A stretch of DNA of 45,389 nucleotides. Origin: Candidatus Izemoplasmatales bacterium. GTDB lineage: Bacteria; Bacillota_I; Bacilli_A; Izemoplasmatales; Hujiaoplasmataceae. Made by a program: the position numbers and the translations under genes. This document shows, in pieces, positions 35,991-37,355 of this stretch. The stretch covers positions 1 through 45,389 of the forward strand of contig JAQVFZ010000002.1 in the NCBI GenBank assembly GCA_028697025.1, written 5' to 3'. The first letter of the stretch is position 1; each line of letters opens with the position of its first letter. Below the pieces are notes generated by a model. That model worked only from the letters and a program-made list of their open reading frames with translations. It did no database searches and was not told the origin of the DNA.

Positions 35991-36437
35991 TTATTTTTTA
36001 AAATAAGAAGAGAGCTTATCTAAGGATTCTATCAATAATTCATCTTTTTCAAGTTCTAAATCATCAAAAATTGAATCAATCATCTCTTTATGGAAATCGT
36101 CATGTTCTTTTAAAACTTCATATGCCTTTGGCAAAAGACCGACAACAACTTTTCTACGATCTTCAGGGTCTCTTTCTCTGGTAACATAACCTTTTTGATA
36201 AAGCGTGTTGATGGCTGTAGTTAATGAACCTATGGTGATACCAAGCTTCTTTGCGACATTTGACATGGTAGCTTCTTCAGATAAAGAGATGGCTTCGATG
36301 ACATGGATTTCACTCATCGAGAGTTTAATGCCTTTATCTTTGAGATTCTGTCCTTCAATCGCTAAAATGCGGTTGAAGATTTCAACCAACAATTCGTTTA
36401 TGATTATTCTGGCTTCTTCACGACTATACTTTTTCAA
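35991..36437 (-). CDS. MarR family regulator, FabT-like
   Basis: EIFNRILAIEGQNLKDKGIKLSMSEIHVIEAISLSEEATMSNVAKKLGITIGSLTTAINTLYQKGYVTRERDPEDRRKVVVGLLPKAYEVLKEHDDFHKEMID closely resembles the FabT layout. TTG start at 36435-36437 proposed; the ORF-track ATG at 36470 lacks an SD and overlaps degV more deeply. Confidence 0.82.
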   Translation of the reverse strand: MKKYSREEARIIINELLVEIFNRILAIEGQNLKDKGIKLSMSEIHVIEAISLSEEATMSNVAKKLGITIGSLTTAINTLYQKGYVTRERDPEDRRKVVVGLLPKAYEVLKEHDDFHKEMIDSIFDDLELEKDELLIESLDKLSSYFKK

Positions 36438-37269
36438 TATAACCAACCCCCATTGTTCCAGGTCCTGCATGGCAGCCGACTACCGGAGTCAGAGGGATTA
36501 GCAAGACGTCTTTTAAGCCTTGTGTTTCCAATTCATCTTTTAAGTCCAGCATTTCGCCCATATTGTTGGTATAGACGATAAAAGCAATGACATTTTTATC
36601 CTTGACTTCAGTTAAAATGCGACGCTTTAGTTCTTCTCTTGCTTTAGAAGTAGTTCTTATTTTATCCAAAGTTTCCACTTTGCCTTCTTTGCTGAGATGC
36701 AATAAAGGTCTCAATTTCAATAATGATCCCAAAGCACCGGCAACGCCTGATAAACGACCATTCTTGACCAAATATTTTAATGTGTCAACTGTTATATAGA
36801 CATGATTGTTATCTCTGATTTTATCTAAAGCTACCAAAATTTCAGCGAGTGGTTTGTTAACGTCAGCCATTTTTTTAGCCGTCATCGCCATTAAAGCCTC
36901 TACATATGTAAGCGATAGTGAATCATAGACATGAACGGGAATATCAATCATCTTAGCTGCCAATACCGCATTTTGATAAGTCCCGCTAAGTTGCTTGGAA
37001 ATTGTGATTACCAGCAATTCTTTGTAACCGGCACTCTTCATTTCTTCGTACATTTCCAATATTTTTCCCGTAGATGTTTGGGCTGTCGAAATATCCAAGT
37101 CCGGATTTTTCAGCAGACGACTGTAAAAATCGTCAGAACTGATATCGACAAAATCTTCATATTCTTCTTTGCCGATATTAAGTAAAGATCTGAATTTCCT
37201 AATTTCTTTATCATGAACCAAATAATCAATTCCCGAATTACCGCATACTGCTACACCAATTTTCCCCAT
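36424..37269 (-). CDS. DegV family (FakB-type fatty-acid-binding) protein
   Basis: 281 aa; DegV fold signatures (ISTAQTSTGKILEMYEEM, VITISKQLSGTYQNAVLAA, VKNGRLSG, GCHAGPGTMGVGY). Confidence 0.93.
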   Translation of the reverse strand: MGKIGVAVCGNSGIDYLVHDKEIRKFRSLLNIGKEEYEDFVDISSDDFYSRLLKNPDLDISTAQTSTGKILEMYEEMKSAGYKELLVITISKQLSGTYQNAVLAAKMIDIPVHVYDSLSLTYVEALMAMTAKKMADVNKPLAEILVALDKIRDNNHVYITVDTLKYLVKNGRLSGVAGALGSLLKLRPLLHLSKEGKVETLDKIRTTSKAREELKRRILTEVKDKNVIAFIVYTNNMGEMLDLKDELETQGLKDVLLIPLTPVVGCHAGPGTMGVGYIEKV

Positions 37270-37288
37270 AAAAATCTCCTAAGTTATA

Positions 37289-37319
37289 ATTTTAATATCA
37301 AATATTTTGAACTTCAAAA
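37289..37319 (-). promoter_or_regulatory. degV/fabT-like operon promoter with overlapping palindromic operator candidate
   Basis: -35 TTGAAG, 17-nt spacer, -10 TAAAAT; 15-bp perfect palindrome TTTTGAACTTCAAAA (37305-37319) covers the -35. Confidence 0.65.
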
Positions 37320-37355
37320 CATATTCTATCATAGAGCTGGATTTTAAGCAATAAA

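Follow-up and report, generated by a model that had tools for sequence, protein, structure and literature searches.

A FabT-like MarR gene overlapping a fakB-like degV gene in Izemoplasmatales, with a predicted operator shared with fatty-acid synthesis genes

In streptococci, enterococci and lactococci, type II fatty-acid synthesis (FASII) is repressed by FabT, a MarR-family protein of Streptococcus, Enterococcus and Lactococcus that takes acyl-acyl carrier protein (acyl-ACP) as co-repressor and whose gene leads the fab operon. The locus described here raises the question of whether a switch of this type may operate outside Lactobacillales, encoded apart from the genes that it controls. The window, that is, the whole analysed stretch of 45,389 nucleotides (contig JAQVFZ010000002.1 of assembly GCA_028697025.1), belongs to a 1.36 Mb draft genome of about 85% completeness whose nearest named relatives are Tenericutes/Izemoplasmatales metagenome-assembled genomes. 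On its minus strand a degV gene is followed by a gene for a MarR-family regulator, and a sequence-only reading had described the two as an overlapping pair of FakB-like and FabT-like genes, autoregulated through a perfect palindrome lying over its own -35 element and serving the uptake and sensing of exogenous fatty acids. The evidence assembled below makes it very probable that the pair is a bicistronic fakB-like/fabT-like operon, in which the MarR protein would be a FabT-type repressor of its own operon and, in trans, of the fab genes, and the DegV protein a FakB-type carrier.

The degV gene occupies positions 36424-37269 on the minus strand and encodes a protein of 281 residues. The longest open reading frame of the MarR gene downstream extends over 35991-36470, the ATG at 36470 being the start given by mechanical calling. 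The TTG at 36437 is probably the true start, because the corresponding frames of two relatives (L002 and L004) have no longer form and begin at the equivalent position, and because conservation in an alignment of ten MarR homologues begins only there. The regulator gene would accordingly span 35991-36437 on the minus strand, encode 148 residues and overlap degV by 14 nucleotides.

Several lines of comparison connect the regulator with FabT. It is a MarR-family winged helix protein (Pfam MarR, 52.3 bits against a cutoff of 24.6), its nearest solved protein is FabT of S. pneumoniae (6jbx, E 4.8e-29; the next 2.8e-13), and its best curated family is likewise FabT, with a score of 112.5 bits that lies 71 bits above the next family (41) and below the cutoff of the FabT model. 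FabT is also the best curated model for ten tested homologues, three of them encoded between accA and fabH, none of which reaches the cutoff; homologues embedded in or linked to fab operons score 93-120 bits, and the cutoff seems to have been set for Lactobacillales. FabT-like homologues between accA and fabH occur in L158, L160 and L161. In a tree of 62 proteins, the degV-linked MarR proteins form one clade (96/88) within a group that contains S. pneumoniae FabT and homologues linked to fab, acpP or rplT, and a split of 89/95 sets this group apart from further MarR paralogues encoded in the same genomes, with one very long-branched paralogue (L095) falling on the other side. The branch of S. 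pneumoniae FabT is long and the order inside the group is poorly resolved, branch length being the reason for this uncertainty. Residue H105Y of S. pyogenes FabT could be placed in this family only with uncertainty and was given no weight, and MarR folds resemble one another too closely for structure to settle membership. The MarR protein thus groups with FabT and apart from other MarR proteins and, judged by its sequence, probably works like FabT; strict membership of the family is withheld, since the curated cutoff is missed and the response to acyl-ACP is a prediction.

The gene neighbourhoods of FabT-like proteins are diverse. In L152, L153, L157 and L177 the gene directly follows small ribosomal-protein genes that read as rpmI-rplT, and no exact copy of the operator described below was found near it within the fetched stretch. 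At L167:2945-4399 a FabT-like gene is divergent from a different DegV gene, with a pneumococcal-type box, TTTTGATTATCAAAA, between them. At L176:2203-5451 a degV-fabT pair is directly followed by acpP-accD-accA, which is possibly an intermediate between the degV-linked and the fab-linked arrangements.

The predicted operator is a 15-bp, odd-centred perfect palindrome, TTTTGAACTTCAAAA, at positions 37305-37319 upstream of degV, with the TTTGA-N3-TCAAA layout of the FabT box, given as ANTTTGATTATCAAATT (PMC10138225). Conservation was assessed in degV-marR loci that had been picked by their MarR protein and not by the box, 46 of which had enough upstream sequence. The exact box, TTTGANNNTCAAA, is present within 130 bp upstream of degV in 43/46 loci, where dinucleotide shuffling predicts 0.08 (no more than 1 in any of 200 shuffles), and the remaining three carry it with one mismatch; the reversed pattern, used as a control, is found in none of the 46. 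Among 97 other promoters within these loci only 3 have the box, and one of the three belongs to a bioY-like gene. The window is AT-rich, and 12 of the 14 exact matches in its genome are not at fatty-acid genes, most of them lying within coding sequence, so that a chance palindrome might be supposed; such a coincidence has practically no probability, being refuted by the conservation among the 46 loci, by a genome with 60-63% guanine plus cytosine that carries the box before degV as well as before acpP, and by the excess of exact matches in the window genome over the reversed pattern (14 versus 4). Exact boxes inside genes were not counted as regulon members, and a search of the window genome with a relaxed pattern, WTTTGAANWTNAAAW, gave no further convincing targets. 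Additionally, a second and degenerate putative operator copy lies at 37289-37303 (ATTTTAATATCAAAT on the plus strand, ATTTGATATTAAAAT on the minus strand), 16 bp from the main box, centre to centre. It is conserved in seven aligned upstream regions and is exact in L171 and L172.

The alignment of these seven regions (the window and six relatives) also places the promoter, on the minus strand. Its invariant parts are the box and, directly upstream of it, an extended -10 element, TGnTAnAnT (columns T, G, T, A, A, T), which in the window is TAGAAT at 37323-37328 with its TG extension (TGATAGAAT, 37323-37331). A -35 element, TTGCTT, can be read at 37346-37351, 17 bp from the -10, and the TTGnnn-N17 spacing recurs in L001-L006; the window promoter is therefore TTGCTT-N17-TAGAAT by alignment, the relatives conserving TTGnnn-N17-TGnTAnAAT just upstream of the palindrome. 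Because the conserved extended -10 is directly upstream, the palindrome is predicted to cover roughly -4 to +11, i.e. the start site and not the -35 element, contrary to the sequence-only reading. The promoter proposed there, TTGAAG-N17-TAAAAT, is readable and was rejected: its supposed -10 is part of the degenerate second box, and its RNA would start almost on the ribosome-binding site. Many more distant relatives likewise have a TTGACA-type promoter upstream of the degV box, which across the relatives appears to cover or follow the start site.

If the MarR protein is a FabT-type repressor, the same box would be expected at the genes of fatty-acid synthesis. In the window genome, a second intergenic full-length box precedes acpP-accB-accC-accD (C57:2829), and the exact box is found before acpP in all 11 relatives from which the acpP-accBCDA-fabH operon was fetched, giving 12/12 genomes with the window genome included. 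Contig C57 stops inside accD, so that fabH-fabZ are not seen joined to the acpP operon in this draft; a partial FabF is encoded on contig C51. The sole PF08541 hit of the window genome, on C72, was rejected as the fab-operon FabH, being a synthase beside a branched-chain-type ABC transporter. The degV and acpP promoters of the same genome share both the box sequence and its tandem 16-bp arrangement. Other MarR paralogues are present in these genomes and MarR sites can look alike, and it could therefore be argued that the degV-linked protein regulates only its own operon, with a different MarR protein binding the same site at acpP-fab. This is improbable given the sequence and tandem arrangement common to the two promoters, the tree, in which only the degV-linked protein belongs to the FabT group, and the co-occurrence of its gene with FASII described below.

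The position of the acpP box bears on the direction of control. In the window's genus and in family f3, 4 bp separate the end of the box from the -35 element that follows it (TCAAAA-N4-TTGAC), a spacing that is constant in the window genome and seven relatives (L024, L063-L069). Such constancy would suit an activator at acpP-fab, which is nevertheless an unlikely role for the protein: in four genomes of other genera (G006, G007, G008 and G010) the acpP box lies downstream of the -10, a repressor position, known FabT proteins repress, and a MarR footprint at acpP would also reach the -35 element. Farther upstream of acpP, about 40 bp before the box, L064, L066 and L067 share TATGAGYG followed by AATATGAAAA, possibly the site of a second regulator.

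FabT-type repression of a wider set of genes is suggested by further boxes in the relatives. The exact box precedes fakA, which is followed by recG and, about 4 kb on, by plsX, in seven genomes (G004, G007, G008, G012, G014, G016 and G020), i.e. in 7/14 of the genomes with the MarR gene and, as an exact match, in 0/5 of those without it; this contrast alone is not significant (7/15 vs 0/5 as tested, p 0.11). Boxes precede birA or bioY in two genomes of family f3. In G020, whose fab operon lacks fabK, a box (L180:1501-1513) stands directly after a -10-like TATAATA and upstream of an open reading frame that reads, by eye, as FabV.

The distribution of the regulator was surveyed in 21 genomes, with statistics that ignore kinship. 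The MarR gene is present in 13/13 genomes with FabF and in 2/8 without it (Fisher p 0.0005, phylogeny ignored), the two being G001, in which FabF was not detected at a completeness of 82%, and G011. PlsX is present in 21/21 genomes and a FakA-type Dak2 protein in 20/21. The degV-marR unit follows fatty-acid synthesis, not fatty-acid activation.

This pattern leads to the question of what the DegV protein carries. It is a clear member of its family (Pfam DegV, 229 bits; TIGR00762, 235 bits), its best solved relatives are FakB1 proteins (E 3.5e-33, residues 34-279 aligned), and it scores 159.8 bits against the FakB1 model. Its genome encodes seven DegV-family proteins in 1.36 Mb, and one of the six others, L040, has a higher FakB1 score (183.7). 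A separate FakA was not found in the window draft genome, in which the only FakA-type protein found is a 598-residue fusion of Dak2 and a full DegV domain (L041:547-2343; G000:C12, about 11-13 kb; YloV 266.6 bits, DegV 206.8 bits).

The uptake of exogenous fatty acids that had been assigned to the unit remains conjectural, for the unit goes with synthesis and not with the Fak-PlsX pathway, present in nearly all relatives, and FakB4, the only FakB of S. pyogenes that FabT represses, is not among the principal carriers of exogenous fatty acids and has no effect on their incorporation (PMC10138225). The DegV protein may instead handle endogenous or surplus fatty acids, in recycling, storage or detoxification, as proposed for FakB4, while the regulator remains FabT-like. 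This variant, compatible with the regulatory part of the preferred explanation, has a probability only a little short of even: the tracking of FabF, the parallel with FakB4 and the six other DegV-family proteins, one with a better FakB1 score, speak for it, whereas the boxes at fakA-recG-plsX in half of the relatives tie the regulator to the activation of free fatty acids.

In family f3 and relatives (L079, L082, L083, L085, L007-L009), the genes downstream of the pair are a PadR-like gene, a small one of unassigned function and often a second degV.

The preferred explanation, a fakB-like/fabT-like operon with control of fab in trans, can be set out as a mechanism. The MarR protein would bind TTTGA-N3-TCAAA as a FabT-type dimer; at its own promoter, where the box is placed over the transcription start, binding would repress degV and the MarR gene itself, and in trans the same box would bring the acpP-accBCDA-fabHKDGFZ operon under control, extending in some relatives to fakA-recG-plsX, bioY/birA and a stand-alone fabV. 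The predicted co-repressor, on the model of FabT, is long-chain acyl-ACP, so that an ample supply of acyl chains would turn down both the unit and fatty-acid synthesis. The DegV protein, which we infer to bind fatty acids of exogenous or endogenous origin, would hand them to FakA.

Certain observations weigh against this explanation. The scores of both proteins are under the curated equivalog cutoffs (112.5 against 200 bits in NCBIfam for FabT, 159.8 against 350 bits for FakB1), the acpP box changes position between genera from upstream of the -35 to downstream of the -10, the co-occurrence counts of the MarR gene and FabF are uncorrected for phylogeny, and G011 keeps the degV-marR unit with neither FabF nor FabH detectable. 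Nevertheless, the sequence evidence largely supports a regulon of FabT type outside Lactobacillales in which fabT belongs to a fakB-like operon and the fab genes are controlled in trans: the protein is kin to FabT, the box recurs at degV, acpP-acc-fab and fakA-recG-plsX, and the MarR gene tracks FabF. The sequence-only reading had recognised the unit correctly in its overlapping genes, FabT-like regulator, perfect palindrome and autoregulation, and the boxes that it proposed to look for upstream of fab, pls and acp genes are found at acpP-acc-fab and, in some relatives, at fakA-recG-plsX. Neither of the outcomes that it named as refuting, a MarR protein clustering away from FabT or a palindrome lacking conservation upstream of orthologous degV genes, was observed; the corrections concern the promoter position, the MarR start and the caution due to 'uptake'.

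A more speculative extension, to which we give a rather low probability, is that the FASII switch was re-wired in this branch of the class: the repressor, translationally coupled to a FakB-type carrier, would form a stand-alone two-protein sensor, the carrier setting an acyl-chain signal to be read by the repressor and the entire pathway of synthesis and activation (fab, fakA-plsX and biotin genes) answering it. In wall-less-lineage relatives, a FabT-type regulon in which the regulator is encoded together with a fatty-acid carrier and controls fab in trans would contrast naturally with the 'perfectly coupled' model, and would give a predicted role to a number of DegV and MarR genes that are otherwise uncharacterised. 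It also suggests that the FabT-FakB link of S. pyogenes could be ancient or could have evolved repeatedly.

Neither a FabT regulon nor a degV-marR pair was described for these bacteria in the literature searched, and the same holds for a degV-fabT operon, with overlapping or adjacent genes, that controls fab in trans and is shared by several families of the class; no paper on carboxylate-binding residues of FakB1 was found either. Among known systems, FabT is similar in protein kinship, in the ANTTTGATTATCAAATT layout of its box, and in having that box at the promoter of its own gene as well as before the acp/acc/fab operon, but here fabT is within a degV operon, away from the fab genes, which are controlled in trans, and its product scores below the curated cutoff. 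FapR of Bacillus and Staphylococcus likewise represses fab and plsX genes globally, and differs from a FabT-type protein in its family, its malonyl-CoA ligand and its operator. FakB1 of S. aureus and its relatives of solved structure share the DegV family with the window protein, which is under the FakB1 cutoff and whose cargo is putative. A fakB gene controlled by FabT has been described before, namely fakB4 of S. pyogenes, a DegV-family gene under a FabT box, as degV is here, with the box between the transcription and translation starts and the gene co-regulated with FASII (PMC10138225). However, no linkage of fakB4 to fabT is described in that paper, whereas in the present case the degV and fabT genes overlap within a single operon and remain paired in several families of the class; what is unusual is that the gene of the switch travels with that of a fatty-acid carrier, not within the synthesis operon under its predicted control.
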